Below, in pieces: positions 4,073 to 30,032 of a stretch of 32,713 nt of DNA (the stretch's first letter is position 1; every line of letters begins with the position of its first letter). The stretch comes from Halobacteriales archaeon QS_5_68_33. Its GTDB lineage: Archaea; Halobacteriota; Halobacteria; Halobacteriales; Haloarculaceae. The position numbers were made by a program, and so were the translations under genes. A model generated the notes under the pieces. It saw only the letters and a list, made by a program, of their open reading frames with translations, did not search any database and was not told where the DNA came from. The DNA is taken from positions 1 through 32,713 of the forward strand of contig PXRS01000042.1 in the NCBI GenBank assembly GCA_003023785.1, in the 5' to 3' direction.

Positions 4073-4300
4073 ATGAATTCACGCCCATCCAATTCCCCCG
4101 ATCTGCCCGATTTACCACCACAATGTGATGAAATTAAGGCCACCGCCAAACCCGGTAGTACCACCCGACTTGAGGATTACATCGAAGACTTGCCAGGTCT
4201 CAACACTGACCGGTTCACCGTCCTCTCCAATATCGCTCACACGATGAACGGTTCAAAATGCGAGAGCGCGAACCGGGGAGGGACGGTTCTCGCTCTCATA
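4073..4300 (+). pseudogene. Possible small ORF interrupted by the IS630 element
   Basis: An ATG at 4073 opens a frame of 76 codons up to the IS630 insertion at 4300; beyond that it runs into IS sequence. If the element and one TA copy are removed, the frame continues 15 codons from 5338 to a TAG, giving a protein of about 91 residues. The translation has acidic stretches (for instance LEDYIEDLPGL) but no recognised domain. The upstream 60 bases are AT-rich. The last coding part overlaps a strong hairpin, which argues that the end may be non-coding. Whether it is a real gene is uncertain. Confidence 0.3.
4262..4297. repeat. Inverted repeat (hairpin) touching the IS630 insertion site
   Basis: GAGAGCG-c-GAACC and GGTTC-t-CGCTCTC form a 12-bp stem with one internal mismatch and a purine-rich 10-nt loop. 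The last paired base is at 4297 and the IS630 flanking TA is at 4299-4300. It could be a terminator-like hairpin or a structural target for the insertion. Confidence 0.6.
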
Positions 4301-5335: not shown

Positions 5336-5513
5336 TATCAGTTCGGTTGGGCATGGCCTATCCACCGATTGCAGAACCTCAGTAGTGTGCGTACATTGTA
5401 GCCCGCTTAGCATCCAGAACCGCGTCATCTAATCACAGGATTCGGGTCAGCGAGTCCCGGTACACGATGGTGTCGACTGAAAGGCTTATGCGGCGGCCCG
5501 TCAAAAGGGGGGC

Positions 5514-16275: not shown

Positions 16276-16332
16276 ACGGCCAGCGGCGGCCGTCTCGGTG
16301 TTGTTGACCGCGCTGCCGGCAACCGCCTCATA

Positions 16333-16406
16333 CGGTCGGTCGACTGTTTACCGGTACAACCGCACGACTGCGTGCGGTCGATCCGGAACAGACCGACAGC
16401 GATCAG
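16333..16406. repeat. 74-bp TA-flanked palindromic element (CGGTCG family)
   Basis: The element starts CGGTCGGTCGAC and ends GCGATCAG, with TA on both sides (16331-16332 and 16407-16408) inside CTCATA and TATCAG. Its exact middle is a hairpin, CCGCACG-ACTG-CGTGCGG (16361-16378). TACCGGTA and ATCCGGAAC are shared with the 74-bp copies at 20246 and 29834. Its ends match each other poorly, so it is a diverged copy. Position 16409 begins the bioB stop codon. Confidence 0.75.
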
Positions 16407-16408
16407 TA

Positions 16409-17518
16409 TCAGTCGTCGGTGTTGCTCGTCGCGGTGCCGGCAGCCGTCTCGACCGGCGAATCCTCGTCGTCCCGGGCTTTGACCGCTTCGGGGTCGAAGT
16501 CGTTGGTCGCGGTGTTGGGTTCCAGTCCGGCCCGCTCGATCGTCTCGATGTCCGCGCCGGGGGACTGGCCGTCCGTCGTGAGGTAGTCGCCCGTGAGGAT
16601 GCCGTCCGCGCCCGCCTCGAAGGGGCGGTGCTGGTCCTCGGGCGCGAGATTGGCCTCACGGCCGCCGGTCAGGCGAACCCGTGCCTCGGGGTGGAGCAGG
16701 CGATACACCGCGACCGTCCGGACCACCTCCTCGGTCGTGATGTCGGCCCCGTCGGGGAACTGCTCGCCCAGGGGCGTCCCCGCCACGGGGTTGAGGATGT
16801 TGACCGGGAGCGAGGAGACGCCCACCTCCTGGAGCGCGATAGCGGCGTCGACGCGGTCGGTCGGCGCCTCGCCCATCCCGAGGATGACCCCCGCACAGAG
16901 GTCCATCCCCGCGTCCCTGGCGACCCGGAGCGTCTCGACCCGGGCCTCGAAGGAGTGGGTGTCGACGACCTCGGGGAAAAAGCGCGGCGAGGTCTCGACG
17001 TTGTGGTTGTAGTGGTTGATCCCCTCGCTCGCGAGGATTTCCGCCTCCTCCTCGGTGAGGATGCCGAGGCTCGCGTCGGCTTCCACGTCGGTCTCGTCTC
17101 TGACGAGGCGGATCGCGCGGATGACCTCCTGCCACTCCTCGGGGCGGCGTTCCTTCGAGACGCCCCTCTCGGCGAGGACGATGCCGAAGCGCTGGGCGCC
17201 GTCGCGCTCGGCGCGTTTCGCCGCGGCGAGTATCTCCTCCGGGTCGAGAAACCCGTAGGTGTCGATGCCGGTGTCGAAGCGGGCCGACTGGGCGCAGAAG
17301 CCACAGTCCTCGGCACAGTCGCCGGCCTTCGCGTTGACGATGGAGCAGGCGTCGACGGTGCCGTCACCGAAGTGTGCGCGGACGGCGTCGGCCGCGGCGG
17401 CGAGCGGTTCGACCGGTTGAGCCAGCAGCGCGAGGCCGTCCCGGCGGTCGAGGGACTCGCCGGCGAGGACCCGCTCGACGGCGTCGTCTATCGTCCGGTT
17501 GCCCGTCTCGTAAACCAC
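16409..17518 (-). CDS. bioB: Biotin synthase (BioB)
   Basis: The 369-residue radical SAM enzyme has the CxxxCxxC iron-sulfur motif CAEDCGFC (Cys 68, 72, 75 from this start) and further BioB signatures: YNHNVETSPRFF, AGVILGMGE and NILNPVAGTPLG. It inserts sulfur into dethiobiotin. The GTG at 17518 is chosen because VYETGNRT is a usual start and TTTTTGCG lies about 28 nt before it. An ATG at 17584, overlapping the stop of the phosphatidyltransferase, adds 22 residues and is an alternative. The C-terminal 20 residues are an acidic extension, and the TGA directly touches the 74-bp element. No other biotin genes are in the window. Confidence 0.92.
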   Translation of the reverse strand: MVYETGNRTIDDAVERVLAGESLDRRDGLALLAQPVEPLAAAADAVRAHFGDGTVDACSIVNAKAGDCAEDCGFCAQSARFDTGIDTYGFLDPEEILAAAKRAERDGAQRFGIVLAERGVSKERRPEEWQEVIRAIRLVRDETDVEADASLGILTEEEAEILASEGINHYNHNVETSPRFFPEVVDTHSFEARVETLRVARDAGMDLCAGVILGMGEAPTDRVDAAIALQEVGVSSLPVNILNPVAGTPLGEQFPDGADITTEEVVRTVAVYRLLHPEARVRLTGGREANLAPEDQHRPFEAGADGILTGDYLTTDGQSPGADIETIERAGLEPNTATNDFDPEAVKARDDEDSPVETAAGTATSNTDD

Positions 17519-17580
17519 AGTTGCCGTGTCGGTTGACCGACGCAAAAACGTTCCGGTGGGCGACACGTTCGGGCGGGAAC

Positions 17581-18282
17581 TCATCGCTCCCAGTAGAACC
17601 TGGGGGCGAGCAGCAGGTAGGCGAAGGCGGCGACCAGGAGCGCGCGGGGGAGCACCCGGCCCAGCGCCGACGGGGCGAGGACGGCGCCGAACTGGACGAC
17701 CCCCATCACGGCGGCGTCGCGGGCGCTCAGTTTCGGGTACGGCACGGGCACGACCATCGCGACCGAGAGGACGACCGTGCCCACGAGCAGGCCGGGGACC
17801 CAGGAGAGGCCGGCGAGATAGGCGGCCGCGAGGATGGTCGCGGCGAGCGTGTTCTGGACGCCCGGGCGGGTGTGGTCCTCGGTGAAGTGCTTGGCGTAGA
17901 GCGCCGTCCGGACGATGGACATCACGGCGAAGAAGGTGGCGACGCCGAGGACTGCGGCGGCCTGGGCCGGCGGGGCGGCCACGAGCCCCCCGTCGCGCCA
18001 GCCCCAGGCGTCGGCGGTCACGACGTAGACGAACAGGGCGGGCGTCGCGCCGAAGGAGACGACGTCGGTGATGGCGTCGAGCAGCGGGCCGACGTCGGAA
18101 CTGCCCATGGTGCGGGCGGTGATCCCGTCGAGGGCGTCGGCGATGGCCGCGAGCAACAGGAGGCGAGCGGCGAGCGCGGGGGCGGAGAAGGCGACGACGG
18201 CGGCGACGATGCCCACAGCGGCGTTGGACAGCGTCACGACGTCCGCGACGCCGAGCCGCTCTTGCACCCGCAGGCCATCCAT
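17581..18282 (-). CDS. pssA: CDP-alcohol phosphatidyltransferase (PssA-like)
   Basis: The 233-residue membrane protein has the family motif DALDGITAR-x7-GPLLDAITD (49-73) with all conserved Asp residues, and about seven hydrophobic segments. It transfers an alcohol, most likely serine, onto a CDP-activated archaeol in the membrane. Serine specificity is inferred from the close match of the sequence around DVVSFGATPA to archaeal phosphatidylserine synthases. The frame is open to 18426, but ATG 18282 (MDGLRVQERLGVADVVTLSN) gives the usual short N-terminus. Its TGA overlaps the alternative ATG of bioB by 4 bp. Confidence 0.85.
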   Translation of the reverse strand: MDGLRVQERLGVADVVTLSNAAVGIVAAVVAFSAPALAARLLLLAAIADALDGITARTMGSSDVGPLLDAITDVVSFGATPALFVYVVTADAWGWRDGGLVAAPPAQAAAVLGVATFFAVMSIVRTALYAKHFTEDHTRPGVQNTLAATILAAAYLAGLSWVPGLLVGTVVLSVAMVVPVPYPKLSARDAAVMGVVQFGAVLAPSALGRVLPRALLVAAFAYLLLAPRFYWER

Positions 18283-18373
18283 ACCCCGCCTGTCGGCGGA
18301 TGCCCACAAGAACCCCGGGGATTTCGGGCCGGACACGCCCGCCGGGTGGCGGTCGCTCGCGCCCGGGTCCGGT

Positions 18374-19027
18374 TCAGTTGCCGTCGGGGAGGCGAAAGCG
18401 CACCGCGGTGACCGCCGTGCCGGCACCGAGGAGGAGCAACTGCCAGCCCGACCGCACCACCGGGAAGACCCGTTCGGGGTTGGGGTCCTCGCTGGTGTCG
18501 CTCGGATCCGGGTCGATACCGGTGCTCATGTTGACCTCCTGTGAGGACCCGAGGCCGTCGGGGGCGGGCGCGCCGCCCTCGTCGGGCGAGAGGTCGACGA
18601 ACGTCTGGATGACCCCGCGCTGGTCGGAGAGTTCGACCTTGCCATCGAGGGTATAGAACTGGTCGTGGAGCGGCCACAGCGGGTTGACGCCGGCACCGAC
18701 GAAATCGAGGCCGATGCCCGAGACCCCCCACGCCACGAGACTCACCCACCCGACGGCGACCCCGTACCCGCCCCAGCGCTCGCGGACGAACGACTCCTCC
18801 CGGAACCGCGTGTCGTAGAGCAACGCGAGCGCGACCGCGATCGGTATCACGTACGTATGCAGGACCGTCCGGTGGCCCACCACGAAGAAGGGCGCGATGA
18901 AGGAATCCAGGTCGGGAAAGGCGGTGGCGGCGAGCACAACGAGGACGGCGTCGCGGTCGTAGTACGGTCCGAGGAGGGCGGCGGCCAGCAACCCGGCGAA
19001 AGCGAGGTGAACGACCGTCGAAGGCAT
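18374..19027 (-). CDS. Membrane-bound metal-dependent hydrolase-like protein (DUF457/YdjM type)
   Basis: The 217-residue protein starts MPSTVVHLAFAGLLAAAL and has FPDLDSF and HRTVLHT, the His/Asp pattern of the YdjM/DUF457 family of integral membrane proteins. There are about four to five hydrophobic segments and a polar loop of 70 residues before the last membrane helix. Family members are predicted metal-binding hydrolases with unknown substrate. The start ATG at 19027 is preferred over an ATG 27 nt upstream because the family begins with the His-containing helix and AGGTTATG lies 26-33 nt before it. A half copy of the CGGTCG element sits just behind that promoter. Confidence 0.75.
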   Translation of the reverse strand: MPSTVVHLAFAGLLAAALLGPYYDRDAVLVVLAATAFPDLDSFIAPFFVVGHRTVLHTYVIPIAVALALLYDTRFREESFVRERWGGYGVAVGWVSLVAWGVSGIGLDFVGAGVNPLWPLHDQFYTLDGKVELSDQRGVIQTFVDLSPDEGGAPAPDGLGSSQEVNMSTGIDPDPSDTSEDPNPERVFPVVRSGWQLLLLGAGTAVTAVRFRLPDGN

Positions 19028-19052
19028 GCCCGCCCCTGAGAGAGCCAGGGGC

Positions 19053-19060
19053 ATAACCTT
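19053..19060 (-). promoter_or_regulatory. TATA-like box of the DUF457-type gene
   Basis: AAGGTTAT on the minus strand, 26-33 nt before the ATG at 19027. The partial palindromic element begins only 5 bp further upstream. Confidence 0.45.
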
Positions 19061-19065
19061 TCATA

Positions 19066-19091
19066 CGGTCGGTTGTCAATCAGTTCCGGAT
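19066..19091. repeat. Half copy of the CGGTCG 74-bp element
   Basis: CGGTCGGTTGTCAATCAG and the following TTCCGGAT match the left end of the element at 29834-29907 with one difference, preceded by TTCATA. No right end or second TA is found at the expected distance, so the copy is truncated. Confidence 0.75.
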
Positions 19092-19136
19092 CGCTCACCC
19101 GGGTGTGCGACCTCGAACTCGATACCGGCCCGCTGC

Positions 19137-19180
19137 CCCGCGCTGGAATCCTCGCGCTTCAGCGCGGGGAGGGGGTCAAG
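19137..19180 (+). mobile_element. Possible right-end remnant of an IS200/IS605-type element
   Basis: GGAATCCTCGCGC-TTCA-GCGCGGGGAG followed by GGGGTCAAG forms an 8-bp hairpin and resembles the subterminal right-end hairpin of haloarchaeal IS200/IS605 (tnpB) elements. No tnpA or tnpB frame is present. After it, codons up to a TAG at 19243-19245 read ALAARLEEVADERPEDRMYM, which looks like the tail of a lost protein gene. The assignment relies on remembered end sequences and is moderate. Confidence 0.4.
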
Positions 19181-19279
19181 CCGCCCTCGCCGCCCGCCTC
19201 GAAGAGGTCGCCGACGAACGGCCCGAGGACCGCATGTACATGTAGCGGGCCGGGACACCGACAGTGCGCCCCGAGACGC

Positions 19280-20131
19280 TCAGTACTCGTGAACGGCGTC
19301 GTCGGTGACGACGGTGTCGACCAGGCCCATCGGGGTGGCGTCGTAGGCGGGGTTCTCGACGGCGAAGCCGTCGGCGGGTTCGCGGATGACCTCGCTGACC
19401 GACCGCTGTTCGTTCTCGAAGGCGAAGCCGCCGCCGACGATCTTCGACTCGGCGCCCACCACGACAAAGGGGACGCCGACGTCGGCGGCCGTCGCCGCGA
19501 CCGGGTAGGTGCCGACGCGGTTGTACAGCGTGTCCTCGACGATGCAGTCCATGCCCACCATCACGCGGTCACAGTCGTCCAGGAAGATCCCCGCGGCGCC
19601 GTCGACGACGAGGGTGACGTCGAAGCCGTCGAACTCCGAGAGGGTGCGGGCCATCTTGCGCCCGAGATAGCGGGGCCGGGCCTCCGCACAGCGGACCGAC
19701 AGCGAGACCCCCGCCTCGGCGGCCGCCGTGAGCGCCTCGAGTACCGTCGAGGAGTAGTCATAGGTGAACACCGTGTCGCCGTCTTCGAGGAACTCCGCCG
19801 CACGCTCGCCCGCCCGGCGCTTGGCAGACTCGACGCGGTCGACGACCTCCGCGACGACGTCCTCGGTGACTGCCTGGGCCGCAGGGACCGTCTCGGCGTC
19901 GCTCTCGGTGACCCGTGAGACAAGTTCTCGCTGGGTCGTCTGGAGGGTCGCGTGGGAAGGGTTCGCCCGCCGGAGCGCGTCGCTGTTGCGCTCCAGCGCG
20001 CGCTCGTACTCCTCGACGGTCGGAAACTCCCGGCCGCCCAGCGCCAGCAGCGCCCGTGCCGCCTTGATCGCCACCACCGAGGAACTGTGCGTCTGCATCT
20101 CGGCGATCTCTTCGACCGTCTCGTCTATCAT
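19280..20131 (-). CDS. eIF-2B alpha/beta/delta-like protein (sugar-phosphate isomerase family)
   Basis: The 283-residue protein has an N-terminal helical domain (1-100, HSSSVVAIKAARAL) and a C-terminal Rossmann-like domain with VFTYDYSSTVLEAL, ARPRYLGRKMA, VMVGMDCIVEDTLYNRVGTY and VVGAESK. This is the eIF-2B/methylthioribose-1-phosphate isomerase/ribose-1,5-bisphosphate isomerase family. The Cys, Asp and Asn of GMDCIVEDTLYNRVGT stand where the family has its catalytic region. Which sugar phosphate it uses is open; archaeal ribose-1,5-bisphosphate isomerase of the AMP pathway is one option. ATG 20131 (MIDETVEEIAEMQTHSSS) is chosen over an upstream ATG because AAAACATTTG lies 26-36 nt before it. 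Confidence 0.8.
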   Translation of the reverse strand: MIDETVEEIAEMQTHSSSVVAIKAARALLALGGREFPTVEEYERALERNSDALRRANPSHATLQTTQRELVSRVTESDAETVPAAQAVTEDVVAEVVDRVESAKRRAGERAAEFLEDGDTVFTYDYSSTVLEALTAAAEAGVSLSVRCAEARPRYLGRKMARTLSEFDGFDVTLVVDGAAGIFLDDCDRVMVGMDCIVEDTLYNRVGTYPVAATAADVGVPFVVVGAESKIVGGGFAFENEQRSVSEVIREPADGFAVENPAYDATPMGLVDTVVTDDAVHEY

Positions 20132-20245
20132 ACGGGAACTGTCGCCGCTTGCGGCCAAATGTTTTCCCCTCCCGGCCGCCGGCGGTCCGGACCGCCCGTC
20201 CGCTCTCCGGACCTGTTCCGGCCGACGTCGCTATCGCGTCTGATA

Positions 20246-20319
20246 CGGTCGGTCGTACCGATGTACCGGTATTTCGCCGACCGGTTCGACGAAATCCGGA
20301 ACTGATCGACAACCGACCG
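20246..20319. repeat. 74-bp TA-flanked palindromic element (CGGTCG family)
   Basis: Ends are CGGTCGGTCGT and ACAACCGACCG, inverted repeats of about 11 bp with one mismatch, with TA at 20244-20245 and 20320-20321 inside CTGATA and TATGAG. In reverse orientation it matches the copy at 29834-29907 at 70 of 74 positions. It sits between the divergent eIF-2B-like and HtrA genes. Confidence 0.88.
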
Positions 20320-20390
20320 TATGAGAGCAGGGTTCCCCGCGTCACCGTGCCCGGGGAAACATTCAATCGTGCCCTTCCCTTTGAACCGTC

Positions 20391-21518
20391 ATGGGAACGC
20401 AGCGACCCTCCAGACGCGGCTTCCTCACAGCGTGTGCCGGGCTGCTGGCGGCCGGCGTCGCCGGCTGTAGCGCGGCACCGGGCGGTGACGGCGAGTCGCC
20501 GGCCAGCACGCCGGAGCCGGACGCATCGCTCGGCGACGAGTCAGCCGCGGTCGAACAGCTCTCCCGGTCCGAGGACGAGGACAGTCCGTACGTCGCCGCC
20601 TACCGGGCAACATACCAGTCCGTGGCCCGGATACGGGTCTACACGCAGTCGGGGACCGGCGGCGGTACCGGCTGGCTCTACGACGAGAGCCACCTCGTCA
20701 CGAACCAGCACGTCGTCGACGGCGCCAGCGACGTCTACGTCCGCTTCCCCGAGGGCGGCTGGACGTCGGCCTCCGTGGTGGCCGCCGACACCGACAGCGA
20801 CCTCGCGGTGCTCGACGTGGCGGAGACGCCGGAGTCCGCCACGGCCCTCCCGTTGCGCGCCGAGGACCCGGCGGTCGGAACCGAGGTCATCGCCATCGGC
20901 AATCCCTTCCAGCGGACGGGGTCGGTCTCGGCGGGCATCGTCAGCGGGACCGACCGGACGCTCCGCCTGCCGAACAACTTCTCGATCCCCGACGCGATCC
21001 AGACCGACGCCGCGGTCAACCCCGGGAACTCCGGCGGGCCGCTCGTCACCCTCGACGGCGACGTCGTGGGCGTCATCAACGCCGGCAGCGGCGACAACGT
21101 CGGCTTCGCCATCTCTGGGGCGCTCACCCGGCGGGTCGTCCCCGCGCTCATCGAGGACGGCGAGTTCGACCACTCCTACATGGGAGTCAGGCTCCGGTCG
21201 GTGGACCCGCTCCACGCGGAAGTCAACGACCTCGAAGAGGCGAGCGGCGTCTACATCCACGAGGTCGTCTCGAACAGTCCCTCGGACGGCGTCTTCCGGG
21301 GGTCGACGGAAACGGTAGCCCGCAACGGCGTCTCGAACATCGGCGTCGGCGGCGACGTCATCGTCGCCATGGAGGACACGCCGATCCCCCAGCAGGAGGC
21401 GCTCTCGTCGTTCCTCGCGCTGGAGACCAGCCCCGGCGACACCATCGAAGTCACGGTCATCCGCGACGGCGAGGAACGAACGGTCGACCTGACGCTCGGC
21501 GAACGACCCGAACTCTGA
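20391..21518 (+). CDS. HtrA/DegP-type serine protease, Tat lipoprotein
   Basis: The 375-residue protein begins with a Tat signal (SRRGFLTA, 7-14) ending in a lipobox VAGC with Cys 26, so it is probably exported folded and anchored outside the membrane by lipid. After an acidic linker comes a trypsin-like domain with His 106 (TNQHVV), Asp 136 (DSDLAVL) and Ser 213 (GNSGGPL), followed by a PDZ domain (about 280-370, YMGVRL and GGDVIVAMEDTPIPQ). It should degrade or refold damaged extracytoplasmic proteins. The PDZ domain has an insertion between strands (ending GVSNIGVG). No neighbouring gene suggests a more special role. Confidence 0.92.
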   Translation: MGTQRPSRRGFLTACAGLLAAGVAGCSAAPGGDGESPASTPEPDASLGDESAAVEQLSRSEDEDSPYVAAYRATYQSVARIRVYTQSGTGGGTGWLYDESHLVTNQHVVDGASDVYVRFPEGGWTSASVVAADTDSDLAVLDVAETPESATALPLRAEDPAVGTEVIAIGNPFQRTGSVSAGIVSGTDRTLRLPNNFSIPDAIQTDAAVNPGNSGGPLVTLDGDVVGVINAGSGDNVGFAISGALTRRVVPALIEDGEFDHSYMGVRLRSVDPLHAEVNDLEEASGVYIHEVVSNSPSDGVFRGSTETVARNGVSNIGVGGDVIVAMEDTPIPQQEALSSFLALETSPGDTIEVTVIRDGEERTVDLTLGERPEL

Positions 21519-21540
21519 GCCTCCCGCCGAGAACGGTCCC

Positions 21541-22365
21541 TCAGTCGATCCGTTCGGCCGCGTCCTTCTCCAGCAGCGGACCGACGTTCGGTTCCGGGAG
21601 CGTTACCACGTCGTTTTCCGTGAGTTCGTACTCGCGGCCCTCGACGCCGTAGATGGGGCCGACGTCGTCCGTGATCCGGACCATCGACCGGTCGACCGAC
21701 GCCGGGCCCGCTCCGCCGGCCGAGTCAGTTCCGGCCGGACCCGATCCGACGGTGTCTGTCCGGGCTGGGTCCGGTCCCGCCGGGTCGGGACCGGCGTCGC
21801 TCCGTGAATCGTCCGGCCCGTCGGCCATCAGGTCCGCCGCGTCGACGGTTCCCCCGTCCCCGGTGTCGCGACTCCCACGACCGGCAGCTTCGACGCCGTC
21901 AGTCGGGCCAGCGGTCGGTGTCTGTGCGTCGGGCTCGCGGTCGGCCGCTCCGTGGTCGGTCGGGTCGACCGGCGGGTCCTCGCCGTCGAGGATGGCGAAG
22001 ACGCCCTCGCGGTTCTGTTCGATGGCGCTCACGAGGCGGTCGAAGAGGGCCTGTTCCTCCTCTGTGAGGCCCTCGTCGCCGGTGGGCATGTCGGCGGCCG
22101 CGAGCGAGGCCATCTTGACTATCTTGCCGACGCGGCGCTCGTAGATGGCCTCGACGGTGTCCTTGCCGGTGTCGATGTCGTCGTTGAGGCGGCCCACCTC
22201 CGGGGCGTTCCACGGGTCGTCGGCGCGCTCGGCCGCGGCGTCCCGTTCGGACTCCAGGTCGGCGATGTAGTCGGCCGCGTCGCGGTAGAACGTCGCGCGC
22301 AGTTGCTGGAGGCTGTCGGTCTGGCGCTCCCGACTCTGTACCGACTGGAGTTCGTTCAGGTCCAT
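21541..22365 (-). CDS. GINS-family DNA replication protein
   Basis: The 274-residue protein has an N-terminal helical A-domain (MDLNELQSVQSRERQTDSLQ, FYRDAADYIADLE), a long low-complexity Asp/Gly/Pro linker (about 135-225), and a C-terminal B-domain-like part with MVRITDDVGPIYGVEGREYELTENDVVTLPEPNVGPLL. This is the layout of haloarchaeal Gins51/Sld5-like proteins, part of the replicative helicase complex with MCM and GAN/Cdc45. It lies 147 bp downstream of priS on the same strand, an arrangement seen in other haloarchaea, which supports the call. ATG 22365 is used; the longer open frame upstream is not protein-like. Confidence 0.8.
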   Translation of the reverse strand: MDLNELQSVQSRERQTDSLQQLRATFYRDAADYIADLESERDAAAERADDPWNAPEVGRLNDDIDTGKDTVEAIYERRVGKIVKMASLAAADMPTGDEGLTEEEQALFDRLVSAIEQNREGVFAILDGEDPPVDPTDHGAADREPDAQTPTAGPTDGVEAAGRGSRDTGDGGTVDAADLMADGPDDSRSDAGPDPAGPDPARTDTVGSGPAGTDSAGGAGPASVDRSMVRITDDVGPIYGVEGREYELTENDVVTLPEPNVGPLLEKDAAERID

Positions 22366-22512
22366 GGTCTCCGGGTGCCCGCTCGGACCGCCGTCCGCTT
22401 GGCGAGTGACTAACCGGCGGCCACACCGTAAAGCTATCGGCGCCGGTCGGCCGGAACGACCCACCGGGAGGCGTATCGGGCACCAGCCCCGTCAGGGGCC
22501 GCGCGGCGTCCG

Positions 22513-23691
22513 TCACTCGGGGGCTTTCTCCGCCCGGCCGCGGGCCATCAGGAACACGCCGACGCACTCCGGAACTTCGACGGTCCCCTCCGCCAGGTCG
22601 AACCGCTCGCCGCGCAACTCGACGGGGCCGGGGTCGGTCACCCCGACCGCGATGTCGTGGCCGACGAACGTCTCGGGGACGGCGTCGACCAACGGCTCGA
22701 ACGCGTCGATGGCGTCCCGGTCGATCCGCCGGACCGCGAGGCCGCTCCCGCCGTGGAGGCTGCCGGGCAGGCGGATCAGCCGGTTGGTGTCGGTCGTCAC
22801 CGGTTCGTCGATGGGCGCGTTCTGCTCGGCCACCGTGACCGCGGCGAACTGCTCGGCGACCTGCTCGAAGGCGGTGTGGACCGAGACGTTGCCCCGTTCG
22901 ATCTCGGCAAAGCGGTTCCGGGCGATCCTGTACATCGCCTTCGCCTTGCCCTCCCCGATGCCGTCGTACTCCGAGAGCGTCTCGACGGCCTCGGCCTCGT
23001 CCCGGTCGCGGACCGTCTCCGCGAGGTCGAGGACGCGACCGTGGATGCGGGCACCCCACCCGCCCGCCCGCGGGAGATACCGGTTCGTCGCGGGCGACGT
23101 GCGGCCGGCCTCGCCGCCCACCGTCTCCTCGTCGACGACGTGGTCGAATTCCAGGCCGATACCCCGCACGTAGTCGACGACCTCCCGGCGGGAGTCGCTG
23201 CCCAGTCCCAGGACCGCCTCGTCGCGGACGTGGACGTGGTAGCCCCGCCCGCCCGAGAAGACGACACCCAGGTCCTCGAAGCCGAAATCGGTCTCCAGGA
23301 AGTCGAGCAACCGCAGGAGCGCCTCTTTGCACTTTGCGAGCATCTCGGCGTAACTGTCCTCGCCGGGGACGACCGAGGGGAGGTGGTCGGCGTCGAGGTC
23401 GAAGACCAGGTCCGACGAGCGCCAGCCCTTGCCGGACATCGTGCTCGCGCCGGGGTCGTCGTACCGGCCGGCCGAGAAGTAGACGTGTTTCGGGCGTTCG
23501 CCGGCGAGGAACTCCTCGAGCGACCCCAGGTCGAGCAGCGAGCGGTGCCGGACCATCGTCTCGCCCGGCCCCTCGGTCCAGGGGACGTAACCCCACTCGC
23601 GCTCGTTGGCGTCCGGCGGCGGCGTCAGTTCCCCCCGGCGGTAGTAGTCCCCGAACCGCCCCCGGAGGTACGCCCGCGTCTGTGACTGCAC
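22513..23691 (-). CDS. priS: DNA primase small subunit (PriS)
   Basis: The 392-residue protein is the catalytic subunit of archaeal/eukaryotic-type primase. Signatures are VYFSAGRYDDPGA (70-82), the metal-binding FDLDADH (97-103), and SGGRGYHVHV (147 on), followed by NRLIRLPGSLHG. It makes primers for DNA replication together with PriL, whose gene is not in the window. GTG at 23691 (protein starting QSQTRAYLRGRFGDYYRR after Met) is preferred; the TTG nine codons upstream lies within the probable promoter, where CAAACGCTTTGC is 25-36 nt before the GTG. A 74-bp palindromic element lies 69 bp upstream. Confidence 0.92.
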   Translation of the reverse strand: MQSQTRAYLRGRFGDYYRRGELTPPPDANEREWGYVPWTEGPGETMVRHRSLLDLGSLEEFLAGERPKHVYFSAGRYDDPGASTMSGKGWRSSDLVFDLDADHLPSVVPGEDSYAEMLAKCKEALLRLLDFLETDFGFEDLGVVFSGGRGYHVHVRDEAVLGLGSDSRREVVDYVRGIGLEFDHVVDEETVGGEAGRTSPATNRYLPRAGGWGARIHGRVLDLAETVRDRDEAEAVETLSEYDGIGEGKAKAMYRIARNRFAEIERGNVSVHTAFEQVAEQFAAVTVAEQNAPIDEPVTTDTNRLIRLPGSLHGGSGLAVRRIDRDAIDAFEPLVDAVPETFVGHDIAVGVTDPGPVELRGERFDLAEGTVEVPECVGVFLMARGRAEKAPE

Positions 23692-23760
23692 GCTCCCAGA
23701 TTGCGAACGGGCGTGCAAAGCGTTTGTGCTCCGGGACAGCCCCGAACGGGACCGCTCATA

Positions 23761-23834
23761 CTGCCGGCTGTAACTTCGTGAGGATATTCGCCGCCTCGGG
23801 GCGGCGAAATTCTTAACAGACTTACAGCCGGCAG
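23761..23834. repeat. 74-bp TA-flanked palindromic element (CTGCCGGC family)
   Basis: Ends are CTGCCGGCTGTAA and its exact reverse complement (13 bp), with TA at 23759-23760 and 23835-23836 inside CTCATA and TATCAG. The exact centre is a second palindrome, TTCGCCGCC/GGGCGGCGAA, around 23797. It has the same length and symmetry as the CGGTCG elements but different sequence. Position 23837 is the first base of the complement of the GNAT stop codon. Confidence 0.9.
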
Positions 23835-23836
23835 TA

Positions 23837-24322
23837 TCAGCCGCTCAGGAAACTGGTCAGCCGGTCGGCGAGGCCCTCCGCCTCGCCGAGGCGGAGGTAG
23901 TAGGCGTCGCCGCCGTCCTCGTAGTAGCCGTCGATGCGCCGGTCGACCGTGAACCCGATGTACCGGTAGAACTCCAGGGCCTCCTCGTTGGTCGTGCGGG
24001 CGTGGCAGGTGACCGACCCGAAGCCCTCGGCGACGCGAGCGACGAGCGCCTCCCCGAAGCCCTCGCCCTGGTAGTCGGGGTCGACGGCGAGAAAGAGGAC
24101 GTAGCCGTCCCGACGAACGGCGGCGAACCCGACGAGCGCACCGCGGTTCGAGCGGTCGAGGAAGAGATAGACCGTCGAGCGCTCGTACGCGCTTTCGAAG
24201 AAACCCCGGCGCTGGCGGAGGACGCCGTGGTCCCGTCGGATCCGCTCTTTGAGTTGCCAGGCGTCCTCGACGTGGCCCCGGTCCCCCGGGTCGACGACCC
24301 GTCGTTCGACGTTGACGCTCAC
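23837..24322 (-). CDS. GNAT N-acetyltransferase (RimI-like)
   Basis: The 161-residue protein has the GNAT core: LVGFAAVRRDGYVLFLAVDPDYQGEGFG (acetyl-CoA loop QGEGFG), followed by ARTTNEEALEFYRYIGFTVDRRIDGYY, the typical second half of RimI-type enzymes. It transfers an acetyl group to an amine; protein N-termini are possible, but the acceptor is unknown. ATG 24334 and GTG 24322 are both possible starts. The GTG is preferred because ATTATAGT on the minus strand is 24-31 nt before it, too close to the ATG. The stop codon touches the palindromic element at 23761-23834. Confidence 0.82.
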   Translation of the reverse strand: MSVNVERRVVDPGDRGHVEDAWQLKERIRRDHGVLRQRRGFFESAYERSTVYLFLDRSNRGALVGFAAVRRDGYVLFLAVDPDYQGEGFGEALVARVAEGFGSVTCHARTTNEEALEFYRYIGFTVDRRIDGYYEDGGDAYYLRLGEAEGLADRLTSFLSG

Positions 24323-24345
24323 TACGCCGTCCATAGCGGATCTGT

Positions 24346-24353
24346 AACTATAA
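24346..24353 (-). promoter_or_regulatory. TATA box of the GNAT gene
   Basis: On the minus strand the sequence reads ATTATAGT, 24-31 nt before the GTG at 24322. This spacing decides the start choice. Confidence 0.5.
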
Positions 24354-24436
24354 TTCCATCGGCGTGGTACGGCCCGCGTTCGGTCGCGTCTCGGCCCCGC
24401 CGAAACGCTTTCACGGCGCCCCCGAGTAGTTCGAGC

Positions 24437-25345
24437 ATGCCTCTCCTTGCCACGACGTCCCCGGGGCGTGCTATAAGCCGTTCCGCCCCCTCGTTGCGGA
24501 AACGCCTCCGGAGCATTCTCCTCAGCGGGGTCGCGCTCACGATCCCGCTCATCGTCACGTTGATCGTCCTGCAGTTCGTCGTGAACTTCGTCCTGGGGTC
24601 GATCAGTCCGGCAGCGACGTTCGTCAGCAGGGCGCTCGGCTTCGGGCAGGTCGACCCCCTCGTGTTGCACCTCGCGGCCATCGGAACGCTCGTCGGACTG
24701 GTGTTCGTCGTCGGCCTGGTCGCCCACGTCCGCCAGGGCAACGAGATCGAGGAACTGTTCGATGCGGTGATGGAGAGCATCCCCGCCGTCGGGTCGGTCT
24801 ACACGAGTTTCAACGAGATGACCGAAATGCTCATTTCGAACGACACCCGGAGCTTTCAGGAGGTCAAACTCGTCGAGTTCCCCGTCGAGGGCTCGTATTC
24901 GCTGGCCTTCGTCACGGCCGACTCCCCGGCGGAAGTCGAGACCGCCACCGACCACGACGAGATGCAGACGCTCTTTCTCCCGATGGCGCCAAACCCGGTG
25001 ATGGGCGGGTACGTCCTGCACGTCTCGACCGACCGCGTCCACGACGTCGACCTCTCCGTCGAGGAGGGGATCCGCTCCATCGTCACCAGCGGTGTCGCGA
25101 CCGGCGAGACCCACGAACACGACGCCGAACTGGTCGACCTCGGGGACATCCGGCAACAGGCGATGGCCGAACTCGACGTCGTCAAAGAACACGCCCGGCG
25201 GGACTACGCCGCCGTCCACCCCGACCGCGACCCCGAAGAGGTCCGGGACGCCGACTCCGCCGAGGGACCGGACGGCTCGGCGGAAAGGGGGGACGACCCG
25301 ACCGATGACGCGGAGGACGCGGACGACGAGCAGGCGAGGCAGTGA
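24437..25345 (+). CDS. DUF502 family membrane protein
   Basis: The 302-residue protein has two membrane helices (about 26-52, ILLSGVALTIPLIVTLIVLQFVV region; and 78-100, LHLAAIGTLVGLVFVVGLVAHV), then the conserved cytoplasmic part with EELFDAVMESIPAVGSVYTSFNE and QEVKLVEFPVEGSYSLAFVT. This is the DUF502 family, whose role is not known. The C-terminal 45 residues are very acidic and disordered. ATG 24437 is the first start giving a short polar N-terminus before the first helix. Its TGA overlaps the archease ATG by one base, so the two are probably cotranscribed. Confidence 0.85.
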   Translation: MPLLATTSPGRAISRSAPSLRKRLRSILLSGVALTIPLIVTLIVLQFVVNFVLGSISPAATFVSRALGFGQVDPLVLHLAAIGTLVGLVFVVGLVAHVRQGNEIEELFDAVMESIPAVGSVYTSFNEMTEMLISNDTRSFQEVKLVEFPVEGSYSLAFVTADSPAEVETATDHDEMQTLFLPMAPNPVMGGYVLHVSTDRVHDVDLSVEEGIRSIVTSGVATGETHEHDAELVDLGDIRQQAMAELDVVKEHARRDYAAVHPDRDPEEVRDADSAEGPDGSAERGDDPTDDAEDADDEQARQ

Positions 25346-25785
25346 TGTCGTACGCGTTGCGCGACCATACGGCCGACGTCGCGGTCGAGGCGACCGGCGA
25401 AACCCTCGACTCGGTGTTCGAGGCCGTCGCCGACGGGATGGCCGCCGCGATGGCCGAGTCGATCCCGGAAGGCGGCGAGCGGTTCTCGCTCGCCATCACC
25501 GCGGAGGGGCGCGAGCAACTCCTCTTCGACTACCTGGACGACCTCATCTACGAGCGCGACGTCCGCGGAACGCTCCCCATCGACAACCGGGCGACGGTTT
25601 CGGCCCCGTCGGAGAGCGAGGGTGTGGCCGACGGGGGAGGCGGTCGGTGGCGCGTCGAGGCGACGGCCCGCGGCGTGGCGCTCGACCGCGTCGAAGCCAG
25701 GGACCTCAAGGCGGTCACCTACTCCGAGATGGACCTCTCGCAGACCGAGGAGGGGTGGCACGCGTACGTCGTCTTCGACGTCTGA
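25345..25785 (+). CDS. Archease
   Basis: The 146-residue protein matches archease: YALRDHTADVAVEATGETL at the N-terminus with the His-Thr-Ala-Asp motif, the central REQLLFDYLDDLIYERDV and the C-terminal DLKAVTYSEMDL. It activates the RNA ligase RtcB by helping guanylylation and turnover in tRNA splicing and RNA repair. The His seen in many members after KAVTY is Ser here. ATG 25345 overlaps the stop of the DUF502 gene. rtcB itself lies 2.3 kb downstream on the same strand, separated by a histidine kinase, a palindromic element and a broken gene. Confidence 0.92.
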   Translation: MSYALRDHTADVAVEATGETLDSVFEAVADGMAAAMAESIPEGGERFSLAITAEGREQLLFDYLDDLIYERDVRGTLPIDNRATVSAPSESEGVADGGGGRWRVEATARGVALDRVEARDLKAVTYSEMDLSQTEEGWHAYVVFDV

Positions 25786-25795
25786 CAGTCGAGAC

Positions 25796-25804
25796 GCTTA
25801 TTTT
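25796..25804 (+). promoter_or_regulatory. TATA box of the histidine kinase gene
   Basis: CGCTTATTTTAC, with the core about 24-31 nt before the ATG at 25827, fits a leaderless promoter and shows that the kinase has its own promoter after archease. Confidence 0.55.
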
Positions 25805-25826
25805 ACAGAAGCCCGTCAAATGGGTA

Positions 25827-27335
25827 ATGGACGAAAACCTGGGACAGTCGCTGGCCGACGAGATGGTCCCGCGGGTCTTGCTCGACCGGATGATCGACGC
25901 GTTCCTCGCGCTCGATGACGAAGGTCGCGTGACTTACCTGAACGAGCGGGCGAAAACCGTGCTCGGACCGCTGTTCGAGGACGGAAGCGACGCCGAGCGG
26001 CTGCAGGGCGAACTCCTCTGGGATGCCCTGCCACAGGCCAGGGAGACCAAGTTATACGAGCGGTTCGACGAGGCGATGGACAGGCAGGAAGGGGACACCT
26101 ACGAGGACTACTACCCTCCGCTGGAGACGTGGTTCGAGGTTACGCTCTACCCATCGGAAGAGGGACTCTCGGTCTATTTCAGGGACGTCACGGAGCGAAA
26201 GGGGCGCGTCGACCGACTGCGACGGCGCGAAGCGGCGCTCCGTAACCTCTACGAGGCGATCGCGTCACCTGACCGCTCGTTCGAGGACCGCGTCGACGCG
26301 CTCCTAGAGACCGGCCGGTCGACGCTCGGGACGGAGTACGGGACCCTCTCGCGCATCGAGAACGGAAACTACCGTTTCGAATTCGTTCGGGGCCCCGGGG
26401 ACACGGTCGAACCCGGGACGATGGTCGACTTGGAAGAGACCTACTGCGAACACGTCGCGGCCCTCAAGGAGACGGTCGTGATCGGGAACGTCGAGATGGA
26501 AGCCTCGGAACTCACCGACCGCGCGGAGTTCACTGAACTCGGGATCACGAGCTACGTGGGGACGCCGGTCCACGTCGACGGCGAGGTCTACGGGACGCTC
26601 TGTTTCTACGGGACTGCGGCCCGGACCGAGGGGTTCTCGGACTGGGAAACGACGCTCGTCGACCTGATGGGGCGGTGGGTCGGGACCGCGGTCGAGCGCA
26701 ACCGCGCCGCGGCCCGGCTCGAACGACAAAACGAGCGATTAGAGCAGTTCGCGGGCGTCCTCTCGCACGACCTGCGCAACCCGCTCCAGGTCGTCAGGGG
26801 GAACCTCGAACTCGCGAGGAGGGACCACGACTCCGAGCACCTCGAGAACGCCGAGGCGGCGGTCGAACGCATCGACCGGATGGTTACGGAGATGCTCTCG
26901 CTCGCAAGGACGGGCGAGACGATCGAGGAGACCGAGACGGCCGAACTGGCGACCCTCGCGCGAGAGGCCTGGGAGCCGGTCTCGACGACCGAGGGGGCTC
27001 TCTCTGTGGAGGTGACCGGGACCGTCGAGGCCGACCGCGCCCGCGTGCTCCGACTCCTCGAGAACCTCTTTCGCAACAGCGTCGAACACAGCGACGGCCC
27101 TGTCGCGATACGCGTCGAGGACACCGCCGACGGGTTCGCCGTCGTCGACGACGGACCGGGGATCCCCGCCGACGTCCGCGACCGGGTACTCGAATACGGG
27201 TACACCGATTCGGCAGACGGTACGGGGTTCGGTCTCTCTATCGTCGCGGAGATCGCCGCAGCTCACGACTGGTCGCTCGACATCACCGATGCAGAGGGGG
27301 GCGGCACCCGGGTTGTACTCGGGGAAGCCCGCTGA
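25827..27335 (+). CDS. PAS-GAF sensor histidine kinase
   Basis: The 502-residue protein has no membrane segment. Domains in order: PAS (about 18-122, MIDAFLALDDEGRVTYLNERA, ending with FRDVTERK), a linker helix, GAF (about 140-290, GITSYVGTPVHVDGEVYGTL), a dimerisation helix with the phosphorylated His 314 in LSHDLRNPLQ, and the ATPase domain with NLFRNSVEH (N-box), DDGPGIP (G1) and GTGFGLSIV (G2). It would sense an internal signal, such as a small molecule or light via PAS or GAF, and phosphorylate a response regulator, which is not encoded nearby. ATG 25827 is chosen with the TATA box upstream. Confidence 0.9.
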   Translation: MDENLGQSLADEMVPRVLLDRMIDAFLALDDEGRVTYLNERAKTVLGPLFEDGSDAERLQGELLWDALPQARETKLYERFDEAMDRQEGDTYEDYYPPLETWFEVTLYPSEEGLSVYFRDVTERKGRVDRLRRREAALRNLYEAIASPDRSFEDRVDALLETGRSTLGTEYGTLSRIENGNYRFEFVRGPGDTVEPGTMVDLEETYCEHVAALKETVVIGNVEMEASELTDRAEFTELGITSYVGTPVHVDGEVYGTLCFYGTAARTEGFSDWETTLVDLMGRWVGTAVERNRAAARLERQNERLEQFAGVLSHDLRNPLQVVRGNLELARRDHDSEHLENAEAAVERIDRMVTEMLSLARTGETIEETETAELATLAREAWEPVSTTEGALSVEVTGTVEADRARVLRLLENLFRNSVEHSDGPVAIRVEDTADGFAVVDDGPGIPADVRDRVLEYGYTDSADGTGFGLSIVAEIAAAHDWSLDITDAEGGGTRVVLGEAR

Positions 27336-27429
27336 CCGCGGCGACCCTCGAATGGGTCGGCCCGCCGGGGATCGCCTGGGATATTTTACCGATTGCGACC
27401 CAGGCAACGGTATGAATGGGCGTCTCATA

Positions 27430-27533
27430 GTGTTTATCACGAGCATTTACCGGTGAGTCGGTCGGGTCACCGGGTGAAAGCGTTTCTCCGGACCGGACTG
27501 GCGGGGTATCGTCGAATCTCTCGTGATAAACAC
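27430..27533. repeat. 104-bp TA-flanked palindromic element (GTGTTTATC family)
   Basis: GTGTTTATCACGAG and its exact reverse complement (14 bp) form the ends, with TA at 27428-27429 and 27534-27535 inside CTCATA and TATCAG. Inside are a hairpin CCGGTGA/TCACCGG and a central GG-t-GAAA-GCG-TTTC-t-CC. A partial copy lies at 12683-12750. It stands between the histidine kinase and the broken membrane gene. Confidence 0.9.
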
Positions 27534-27577
27534 TATCAGGGCGTCGCTGGGCGGCGCCGGACGGTGCTGGGTCTGGC

Positions 27578-27986
27578 GTGAGTCGCTGGCCGCGCGAGCG
27601 CACACGTCGACTACGTGACGGGCCCGGCGGCGGCGTCCTGACAGTTCTCGCGCTCGTGGCGCTGGACCTGCGCGTGCGGCCGGCTGTCCCGGACGTGGAC
27701 GCGCTACAGGCGGCACTTGCCGAGTACGACGGGCACGTCCCCTGGATGTTGCGGCTGAGCCTGCGGCTTGCCGCTGGTCGGCGCCGGGTTCGCGGGCTAC
27801 CTGTTTAGCCCCGCCGTCCTCGCCGACGCGCGCCTCCTGCAGGTGGGTATCGGATCCCTCCTGCTGTTCGGGCTGGCGACGCTCTTCGGACTGCCGGACG
27901 ACCCGGTGCTCGCCCACATCACGCTGTTCGGCCTCCTCTCGGCCGTGTTCACCCTCGGGAGCGGCCCCTACTCGCTCGACGCGTGA
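27578..27986 (+). pseudogene. Small membrane protein gene with a frameshift
   Basis: A frame from GTG 27578 encodes a polar start, then GGVLTVLALVALDLRVRP and AALAEYDGHVPWMLRLSL. It stops looking protein-like near 27768, where another frame continues with LVGAGFAGYLFSPAVL, a hydrophobic helix LLLFGLATLFGL and ITLFGLLSAVFTLGSG up to the TGA at 27986. Together they give about 135 residues with three to four hydrophobic stretches. A single-base change near 27770 would join them. It is either a decayed gene or a sequencing error. The family is not recognised. Confidence 0.5.
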
Positions 27987-28099
27987 CTGGCGACGAACAG
28001 CCCTCGGGCCGAACGGGGCGCGATGTCGGCCGACCCCGCCGGCCGGTGACCCCGGAGGACAGCGAAACCTATTCCGGCGCGCCCGGCGGACGCTAGGGT

Positions 28100-29554
28100 A
28101 TGACCACCTACGACGCCGACGGGATCACCCTCGAACGGGTCCGCGAGTACGTCTGGGAGATCCCGCGCGAGGGCGACATGCGCGTGCCGGCGCGCGTCCT
28201 CGCGAGCGAGGAACTCCTGGACGAGATCAGCGAGGACAAGACGCTCCAGCAACTCAAGAACGCGACCCACCTCCCCGGGGTCCAGGAACACGCCGTCTGC
28301 ATGCCCGACGGCCACCAGGGCTACGGCTTCCCCGTGGGGGGCGTCGCCGGCATCGACGCCGAGGACGGCTGTATCTCGCCGGGCGCGATCGGGTATGATC
28401 TGAACTGCGGCGTCCGCATGATGACAACACCACTCACCTACGACGACGTGCGGGGCCGCGAGGCGGAACTCGTGGACACGCTGTTCGCCAACGTCCCCGC
28501 GGGGCTGGGCGGGGGCGGCGTCTACGAGGGGTCGAAGGCCGACGTCGAGGAGATCCTCGAACGCGGCGTCGAGTGGGCGCTGGCGGAGGGGTTCGCCCTT
28601 CCCTCGGACCTGGACCACTGCGAGGACGAGGGCCGCCGGACGGACGCCGACCCCTCGCGCGTCTCCCGGAAGGCCAAGGACCGCGGAAAAAACCAGGTCG
28701 GCAGCCTCGGGAGCGGCAACCACTTCCTCGAAGTCCAGCGCGTGACGGACGTCTACCGGGATGACGTGGCCAGGGAGTTCGGCCTCGAAGCGGACCGGAT
28801 AGTGGTGCTCGTCCACTGCGGGTCCCGCGGGCTGGGCCACCAGGTCTGTACCGACTACCTCCGGGAGATCGAACAGACCCACGCCGGAATGCTCGACCGC
28901 CTGCCCGACAGGGAACTGGCGGCGGCGCCCGCGGGGTCTCAACTGGCCGAGGACTACTACGGCGCGATGTGCGCGGCGATCAACTTCGCGTGGGTCAACC
29001 GCCAGCTCGTCATGCACCGGGCCCGGGAGGTCATCGCCAAGCTGTTCGACCTCGATACGGGGGAGATGGAACTGCTCTACGACGTGGCTCACAACATCGG
29101 GAAGAAGGAGGTCCACCGGATCGAGGGGGAGGAGCGTGAACTCTACGTCCACCGGAAGGGGGCGACGCGGGCGTTCCCGGCCGGGCGGCCGGAACTCCCG
29201 GCGGCCTACCGCGACGTGGGACAGCCCGTGATCATCCCGGGGAGCATGGGCGCCGGGAGTTACGTCCTCCGGGGCGGGGAGAACTCGATGGACGTCTCGT
29301 TCGGCTCGACGGCCCACGGCGCGGGGCGGCTGATGAGCCGCACCCAGGCCAAACAGGAGTTCTGGGGCGGGGACGTCCGGGACGACCTGCGCGACCACCA
29401 GCAGGTCTACGTCAAGGCCGAGAGCGGCGCGACCGTCGCCGAGGAGGCCCCGGGCGTCTACAAGGACGTCGACGAGGTGGTCCGGGTCTCCGACGCGCTG
29501 GGCATCGGCGACCGCGTCGCCCGCACGTTCCCGGTCTGCAACATCAAGGGTTAG
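28100..29554 (+). CDS. rtcB: tRNA-splicing ligase RtcB
   Basis: The 484-residue protein is a complete RtcB. Mn2+-binding and catalytic residues are visible: Asp 100 and Cys 103 (GYDLNCGVR), His 208 (GSGNHFLEV), His 239 (VLVHCGSRG), His 331 (AHNIGKKE), and the guanylylated His 406 (STAHGAGR). It joins RNA 2',3'-cyclic phosphate ends to 5'-OH ends with GTP, in tRNA splicing and RNA repair. Archease at 25345 is its activator. ATG 28100 gives the usual N-terminus. The TAG overlaps, on the opposite strand, the TAA of the truncated pilin gene. Confidence 0.96.
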   Translation: MTTYDADGITLERVREYVWEIPREGDMRVPARVLASEELLDEISEDKTLQQLKNATHLPGVQEHAVCMPDGHQGYGFPVGGVAGIDAEDGCISPGAIGYDLNCGVRMMTTPLTYDDVRGREAELVDTLFANVPAGLGGGGVYEGSKADVEEILERGVEWALAEGFALPSDLDHCEDEGRRTDADPSRVSRKAKDRGKNQVGSLGSGNHFLEVQRVTDVYRDDVAREFGLEADRIVVLVHCGSRGLGHQVCTDYLREIEQTHAGMLDRLPDRELAAAPAGSQLAEDYYGAMCAAINFAWVNRQLVMHRAREVIAKLFDLDTGEMELLYDVAHNIGKKEVHRIEGEERELYVHRKGATRAFPAGRPELPAAYRDVGQPVIIPGSMGAGSYVLRGGENSMDVSFGSTAHGAGRLMSRTQAKQEFWGGDVRDDLRDHQQVYVKAESGATVAEEAPGVYKDVDEVVRVSDALGIGDRVARTFPVCNIKG

Positions 29555-29847
29555 CCGTCCCAGGTTTCGAGGACGGTCTCGTTGCCCGCGGGGGGCGCGT
29601 AGACGACGCGGATCCGGTCACCCGAGTTGACGCATGCCCCGTAGGCGTTGTCGGTGCTGAGCTGGACGGTATCGCCGGGGCCGACCGGTGTGGTTTCGCC
29701 GGACCCGGCGAGTTCGTGCCAGCGGGCGCTCCCGTCTCCCGACCGGAGCGTGAGGTTCCCGGCGTCGAACTCGCTGCCGCGGTCGTGGGTGACGATCAGG
29801 ACCGACGACCCCTCGATGTGCTGGAAGCTGATACGGTCAGTTGTCAA
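29551..29847 (-). pseudogene. Archaeal type IV pilin, N-terminus lost by element insertion
   Basis: The frame encodes the C-terminal part of a haloarchaeal type IV pilin (DUF1628-like): ISFQHIEGSSVLIVTHD, DAGNLTLRSGDG, VGPGDTVQL, NSGDRIRVVYAPPAGNETVLETW. The N-terminal signal, processing site and hydrophobic assembly helix are missing. Host sequence stops at about 29833, exactly at the TA flanking the 74-bp element; the only start (TTG 29847) and first five codons come from the element. Nothing matching a pilin N-terminus is found on the other side, so more than a simple insertion has happened. Its TAA overlaps the rtcB stop on the opposite strand. Confidence 0.72.
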
Positions 29848-29907
29848 TCAGTTCCGGATGTCGTCGAACCGGTCGGCGAAATACCGGTACATCGGTACAA
29901 CCGACCG
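29834..29907. repeat. 74-bp TA-flanked palindromic element (CGGTCG family)
   Basis: The element starts CGGTCAGTTGTC and ends GTACAACCGACCG, with TA at 29832-29833 and 29908-29909 inside CTGATA and TATCAG. It is the inverted counterpart of the copy at 20246-20319 (70 of 74 identical). It ends the pilin coding sequence, and the second element at 29923 starts 15 bp further on. Confidence 0.88.
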
Positions 29908-29922
29908 TATCAGCCGTTGATA

Positions 29923-30026
29923 CTGTCGGACACGAGCCATGCCACCGCTCCGGTGGCTGTCTCGGAGTCCTCGAAACGCACGTCCCCGACCGTCGCCGAG
30001 CACGGTCATGTACCTGTGTCCGACAG
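29923..30026. repeat. 104-bp TA-flanked palindromic element (CTGTCGGACAC family)
   Basis: CTGTCGGACAC and its exact reverse complement form the ends, flanked by TA at 29921-29922 and 30027-30028 inside TTGATA and TATAAG. With flanking bases the inverted repeat is 14 bp perfect. Inside is a hairpin GCCACCG-CTC-CGGTGGC (29941-29957). Its end sequence shares CTGTCG with the IS remnant end at 260-265. It lies directly before the UPF0173 gene. Confidence 0.8.
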
Positions 30027-30032
30027 TATAAG
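30026..30032 (+). promoter_or_regulatory. TATA box of the UPF0173 gene at the element border
   Basis: GTATAAG lies 27-33 nt before the ATG at 30059. It is formed by the last base of the 104-bp element and its TA flank, so the insertion may have created or moved this promoter. Confidence 0.5.

Follow-up and report, generated by a model that had tools for sequence, protein, structure and literature searches.

Gene-less mini-transposons occur in salt-loving archaea in hundreds of copies at a few fixed lengths, often exactly on stop codons

Introduction

The SMR-A and SMR-B elements (short mobile repeats) of the haloarchaeon Haloquadratum walsbyi are gene-less, have prominent inverted ends and are present in many copies; three families of ~110 bp lack sequence similarity to each other, and one SMR-B family is 80 bp long (PMC3119063). 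RUP of Streptococcus pneumoniae is a 107-bp MITE with ~110 copies and ends like those of IS630-Spn1 (PMC3049150, PMC2229807), and the abundant Correia/NEMIS elements of Neisseria have terminal TA and a short form of ~107 bp (PMC2229807). The target duplicated by those IS630/mariner elements that have been characterised is TA rather than TNA (PMC2170065). The lengths of MITEs are usually regarded as accidents of internal deletion. Duplication of a 3-bp TNA or TWA, together with abundant MITEs, is found in the IS1031 group of IS5 and in PIF/Harbinger with its Tourist MITEs.

The window is the whole 32,713-nucleotide stretch of DNA that was analysed; it is contig 42 of an assembly with 84 contigs (2.42 Mb, 71% complete), referred to below as G000. 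Matches in plasmids of Haloarcula and Halomicrobium suggest that G000 belongs to the Haloarculaceae. A first-pass annotation of this DNA had noted TA-flanked palindromes at fixed lengths and knew of no report of such a length rule. This is only partly right, as the SMR families, described in 2011, are a precedent (PMC3119063). Compared by description only, the SMRs cover the same two length ranges as the MITEs described here. By these descriptions the MITEs differ in having a duplicated 3-bp TNA, ends that resemble those of IS630 and stop codons as targets; SMRs were reported without a target duplication or a related transposon, IS605/PATE palindromes being preferred (PMC3119063). RUP resembles our elements in its length and in its IS630-like ends, but is AT-rich, has been described at TA targets and lies near IS elements; neither a series of lengths nor a preference for stop codons has been reported for it (PMC3049150, PMC2229807). 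Correia/NEMIS elements resemble them in their TA termini, the length of their short form and their abundance, but have a second form of ~155 bp with a 50-bp internal insert and a different transposase context (PMC2229807). Transposons of the ISY100 type (IS630/Tc1/mariner) are, as here, ~1 kb long with inverted ends, and their DDE_3 transposase has helix-turn-helix domains at its N terminus; they insert into and duplicate TA (PMC2170065), whereas the haloarchaeal copies lie in TNA repeats with the TA inside the element.

Elements in the window

Six TA-flanked stretches with spacings of 74 or 104 bases are present in the window where the first-pass annotation had placed them, but the element boundaries that it drew were wrong. 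The two flanking TAs have to be counted with the terminal inverted repeats, and it is the adjoining 3 bp on either side, TNA (mostly TCA or TGA), that represent the duplicated target. With TA inside the element and the TNA duplication outside it, the true lengths are therefore 78 and 108 bp. The elements, none of which is assigned a strand, are as follows.

16331-16408: degenerate MITE, 78 bp, TCA on both flanks; aligns with an 80-bp family of genome G003
20244-20321: MITE, 78 bp, family F1 (TACGGTCGGTYGTA), duplication TGA; inverted-repeat scan
23759-23836: MITE, 78 bp, family F2 (TACTGCCGGCTGTAA), strong central hairpin, duplication TCA; inverted-repeat scan
27428-27535: MITE, 108 bp, family F6 (TAGTGTTTATCACGAG), duplication TCA; inverted-repeat scan
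29832-29909: MITE, 78 bp, family F1, flanks TGA/TCA (duplication no longer matching)
29921-30028: MITE, 108 bp, family F5 (TACTGTCGGACACRAG), flanks TGA/TAA, non-matching

Good inverted repeats were found in five of the six stretches, with 10-12 of the outer 12 bases pairing, and a scan of the window for TA-N(30-300)-TA with at least 10/12 paired end bases returned exactly these five (five shuffled windows gave 0-2 matches). The remaining element, at 16331-16408, has mismatched ends and is a diverged copy of the 80-bp family in the related genome G003, with which it aligns well. Symmetry about the exact centre, which had been claimed for all of the 74-bp copies, holds for three of the four (42-58 of 74 positions) but not for 16333-16406, which is no clean palindrome and has in-register symmetry at only 20/74 positions; in the 104-bp copies symmetry is confined to the ends. 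Two elements abut genes on the minus strand: the right TCA of 16331-16408 is the stop codon of a radical-SAM/BATS gene (16409-18307) and the right TCA of 23759-23836 is that of a GNAT gene (23837-25219), which was missed by the simple gene caller.

Target duplication

In family F2 the base at position -4 was identical to that at +4 in 97% of copies, compared with an expected 33%, and F5 and F1 showed the same agreement. In G003, which belongs to another genus, the same TNA was present on both sides of nearly every arm pair, and in G021 the TNA flanks were identical in all pairs. A scan that required the duplication returned 121 pairs, compared with 0 in shuffled DNA; the duplicated triplets were TCA (73), TGA (42), TAA (5) and TTA (1). 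Family F4 lacks the 3-bp duplication in its flanks. We rejected the alternative that the flanks CTSATA/TATSAG belong to the element, because the S base is a direct rather than an inverted copy across the two sides.

Three nested copies reveal the empty site: empty F1 ends read GTTGTAAGTC or GTTGTCAATC, and F1 ends with an F2 copy inside read GTTG-TAA-[TA...TA]-TAA-GTC or GTTG-TCA-[TA...TA]-TCA-ATC. F2 lies inside the F1 end at an identical position (GTTG-TNA) at L033 5959-6112 and L031 14335-14494 in G000 and at L144 16788-16947 in G003. The F1 end is a favoured target, with three independent F2 insertions in two genera. Different MITEs also lie side by side with one common TNA between them, at L135 2066-2224, L142 7054-7214 and L152 15699-15857 in G003 and at L257 1504-1682 in G115, as if the new copy had landed on the duplication at the edge of the old one.

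Families and copy number

The genome-wide counts rest on 1.13 Mb of the 2.42 Mb of G000. A stricter scan of this sequence gave 155 matches, whose lengths between the TAs peaked at 74, 76 and 104; Markov shuffles gave 2. The annotation's statement that there were at least four sequence families was correct: six main families can be defined in G000 by their ends, with 206 pairs in the 1.13 Mb.

F1, ends TACGGTCGGTTGTA: 111 pairs
F2, ends TACTGCCGGCTGTAA: 46 pairs
F5, ends TACTGTCGGACACAAGT: 23 pairs
F6, ends TAGTGTTTATCACGAG: 11 pairs
F4, ends TACTGGTCGACAGA: 9 pairs
F3, ends TACGGATTATTGTAG: 6 pairs

Among the matches listed, F1 has ~40 strong copies genome-wide. The elements are real non-autonomous transposons (MITEs), with ~200 in the 1.13 Mb: they are 78-108 bp long, have no coding capacity, carry end repeats of at least 12 bases, and are dispersed in many copies with a target duplication, as seen in the pair counts, the TNA flanks and the nested empty sites. 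F2 had no match among phage records. An element near-identical to those of family F5 is present at L299 578-689 in the genome G030, which has been placed in a different family of the order; recent transfer or assembly contamination could account for this.

IS630-family transposons

Besides the MITEs, the window carries a complete transposon.

4299-5337, minus strand: complete IS630-family transposon, 1039 bp, ends TACGGTCGTGCG, TCA on both sides; duplication-filtered de novo scan
4328-5245, minus strand: transposase ORF, 305 aa; Pfam DDE_3 PF13358, 1.1e-30; NCBIfam transpos_IS630 NF033545, 9.6e-48

The transposase is of the IS630-family DDE_3 type (NF033545, 163 bits against a cut-off of 100 bits). 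Only the outer 8 bp, TACGGTCG, are common to this transposon and F1, which makes it a likely relative of the F1 mobiliser. F1 has more copies than any other family; no full-length transposon with ends identical to those of F1 was found in G000.

Further IS630 copies came from PF13358 searches of G000 and ten relatives and from a scan of named genomes (76 loci). Where their ends could be set, they start with TA and lie in TNA repeats, as at L162; identical TNA repeats were present in 16 of 22 clean-ended copies (counted by eye from the table). The L158/L214 transposon, 1114 bp long with ends TACTATCGGCTGAAAGTTCGTGAG, is close to F2 over 24 bases, and the start of F6, TAGTGTTTA, matches the IS630 loci L192, L193 and L174. 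In G003 the L164 transposon (1193 bp, ends TAGTGACCGTTGTACCGAT) is accompanied by an 80-bp MITE with matching ends. Ends in common with an autonomous transposon, as expected of MITEs, are therefore clearest for L164 and its 80-bp MITE, close for F2 and L158/L214, and limited to 8 bases for F1. As judged from these ends, the MITEs are likely to be mobilised by an IS630-family (DDE_3) transposon.

Duplication of the dinucleotide TA, the usual mark of IS630 elements, was not seen in the MITEs or in the 16 IS630 copies with identical repeats, which have the 3-bp TNA with the TA inside. As published IS630/mariner elements duplicate TA, the haloarchaeal TNA type is a departure; if IS630-type enzymes do make 3-bp TNA duplications, this would widen the known behaviour of the large mariner-related family. 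In a transposase tree, with partial labels and several weak deep forks, three groups are of the TNA type and a fourth, with ends CTATAGTAACC, resembles the classic TA type. The loci L216, L219, L221 and L231 make up a haloarchaeal IS630 clade of their own with ends CTATAGTAACCGTTAGAA, and its target appears to be the classic TA (C-TA-G).

The TNA duplication had initially suggested an IS5-type (DDE_Tnp_1) mobiliser, which was rejected for want of matching ends: none of 31 PF01609 loci in G000 and its relatives had matching ends at a transposon boundary, and G000 has a single DDE_Tnp_1 match, without MITE-like ends. The transposases with the right ends are of the DDE_3 type; IS1031 and PIF/Harbinger use another transposase family. 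L119, considered as an F2-ended mobiliser, was likewise rejected, as it proved to be an unrelated insertion sequence that had entered an F2 copy (a DDE_Tnp_1 element of ~1.4 kb at L119 1008-2498 in G003, with its own duplication of ~10 bp). Apparent composite F1-ended elements of 500-3000 bp in G000 proved to be separate MITE pairs around ordinary genes.

Insertion at stop codons

For the stop-codon test we used the 96 MITEs of G000 that are flanked by TCA or TGA, together with predicted genes, for which the calls are approximate. The triplet coincided exactly with the TGA stop of a gene for 48 of the 96 MITEs, compared with 595 of 6091 extragenic TCA/TGA sites (~10%; P = 7e-23), and GC-rich third positions upstream of the on-stop sites confirmed the gene ends. 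On-stop placement was also found for 15/42 elements across the order (one locus per genome), for 4/13 in the named genomes, for 10/37 at G003 and F1-type loci (a few of these from G000) and for 15/23 at the G000 loci L001-L030, which partly overlap the set of 96; the control for these sets was 2-7% of neighbouring extragenic TNA sites. Both length classes were alike in their stop-codon placement. Of the IS630 copies themselves, only 3/22 were on stop codons.

A TGA duplication restores the stop, so that an on-stop insertion is harmless and the gene survives. The excess could for this reason be a matter of survivorship, i.e. insertion at random TNA sites followed by loss of the copies that hit genes or promoters; genes are dense, and an on-stop insertion with its 3-bp duplication keeps the protein intact. 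However, sites a few bases downstream would be equally harmless. Yet of the 56 insertions that lie no more than 60 bp from a gene 3' end, 48 were exactly on the stop, compared with 595 of 1175 sites (P = 1e-7), and in convergent gaps only, 14 of 18 insertions were, compared with 196 of 504 sites (P = 0.001). Although this evidence is not final, given the approximate gene calls, survivorship seems to us a reasonable but rather doubtful account of the excess, and the convergent-gap control favours a preference, i.e. stop codons would be chosen by the enzyme rather than merely tolerated. Stop-restoring insertion would explain how gene-dense genomes can hold hundreds of parasite copies without gene breakage.

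Length classes

Sharp length peaks across unrelated ends had been proposed as the test of a length rule. The outcome was favourable, at the corrected lengths of 78 and 108 and with a third class at 98-99. We searched 295 genomes of the order for elements of 69-129 bp with TACTGTCGG ends; 57 had matches, compared with 0 for the reversed control, and 25 of the matching genomes were searched again for listing. Taking one element per genome (n=52), 28 were 75-79 bp long, 9 were 98-100 and 13 were 102-109, with almost none between. The shorter lengths were 70, 75, 76 (two), 77 (four), 78 (twenty), 79 and 82, and the longer ones 98 (three), 99 (five), 100, 102, 103, 105, 107 (three), 108 (six) and 109. 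This survey is based mainly on one end sequence, and the data on which the peaks were defined are the same as those that support them. When the range was extended to 119-179 bp only six genomes matched, mainly with families at 161-167 bp; one multi-copy family with TACTGTCGG ends, at G083:C1 101310-101482 and elsewhere, is 165-167 bp long and lies outside the usual classes. F1-type ends occurred in eight genomes, mostly at 78-79 bp. In 1.37 Mb around IS630 copies of named haloarchaea, with 40-400 bp allowed, we found 12 elements, compared with none in shuffled DNA, at 78 (five), 79 (two), 95, 98, 99, 107 and 108 bp.

Equal lengths could arise from common descent only, the families being ancestral deletion products that have drifted apart as cousins, with no constraint at all. 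For the shorter class this has some force. The interiors of F1, F2, F3 and F4 in G000 are alike (z 6.5-10.6), and the 75-80-bp class is largely one deep lineage whose members have the same layout and fold into a central hairpin (mean folding z -3.4). The hairpin is conserved: its stem has 26 double-change cells, indicative of compensatory change, where shuffles gave 8.9 +/- 2.2 and slid controls no more than 9. Since most 78-bp elements go back to a single lineage, they may have inherited their length.

The longer elements behave differently. Single-linkage clustering at a loose threshold (z>5.5) ran many families together; at the stricter z>8 that replaced it, the longer elements form 20 interior clusters without mutual similarity. 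Eleven of these are at 107-108, six at 98-99 and three at 102-105, and two extra clusters are at 162 and 167. With 17 of the 20 at 98-99 or 107-108, descent alone is no full explanation. Most 98-109-bp elements have no central hairpin (mean z -0.8), whereas L288/L292 are strongly folded, yet both kinds are 108 bp long. L290 and L292, a 78-bp and a 108-bp element of one group, have their outer ~27 bases in common. The recurrence of 107 bp in the bacterial RUP and Correia elements also argues against common descent, which as the only cause of the length classes we consider unlikely. The first-pass annotation had attributed the fixed lengths to the machinery that moves the elements; such a constraint, though not proven, best explains the longer classes, common descent accounting in part for the ~78-bp class. 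It would reside in the end-pairing complex of IS630-type transposases, and possibly acts in helical-turn steps. Lengths of 78, 98.5 and 108 fit steps of ~10 bp, but three classes cannot prove helical phasing, and lengths of 102, 103, 105 and 161-167 occur as well.

That the elements are retained as bidirectional terminators or transcript-end hairpins serving the host at gene 3' ends, with selection on the hairpin, is very improbable: the compensatory changes of the 78-bp class and the many copies directly 3' of stop codons would fit such a role, but the mostly hairpin-less 98-109-bp elements lie at stops about as often, i.e. unstructured elements behave alike, an Rfam search of the window matched no family, and convergent gaps are not dominant (26/90).

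Proposed mechanism

We infer that haloarchaeal IS630-family (DDE_3) transposases mobilise the gene-less MITEs in trans by a cut-and-paste reaction. Each ~25-bp end would be a putative transposase binding site made up of TA, a variable outer box and a more conserved inner box. Insertion is at a TNA trinucleotide, very often the TGA stop of a gene, and duplicates the TNA. Element lengths are limited to a few values (77-80, 98-99 and 107-108), which would be explained if the paired-end complex works well only at certain end spacings, perhaps about a helical turn apart. Under this proposal, a complex that is efficient only at certain spacings would allow only elements of those lengths to spread. 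We consider this account as a whole, i.e. movement in trans by IS630 transposases with TNA duplication, complex-limited lengths and frequent stop-codon targets, to be probably correct, although F4, without a 3-bp duplication, and the elements of 102, 103, 105 and 161-167 bp do not fit it.

A broader version, which we put forward only tentatively, is that a set of archaeal IS630 enzymes combines a 3-bp stagger with a stop-codon preference and a quantised end pairing (~78, 99 and 108, in ~10-bp steps) that sets MITE length across the order, and perhaps also in RUP and Correia. If families with unrelated interiors do have preferred lengths in common, the length of a MITE would reveal the geometry with which its transposition complex is built.

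Two further observations concern the transposases. A fragment of a second IS630-type (DDE_3) transposase lies at the contig start (window 57-182). The IS630 transposases at L154, L157, L159, L160 and L162 are each encoded in two overlapping frames, a split that would fit either programmed frameshifting or decay.
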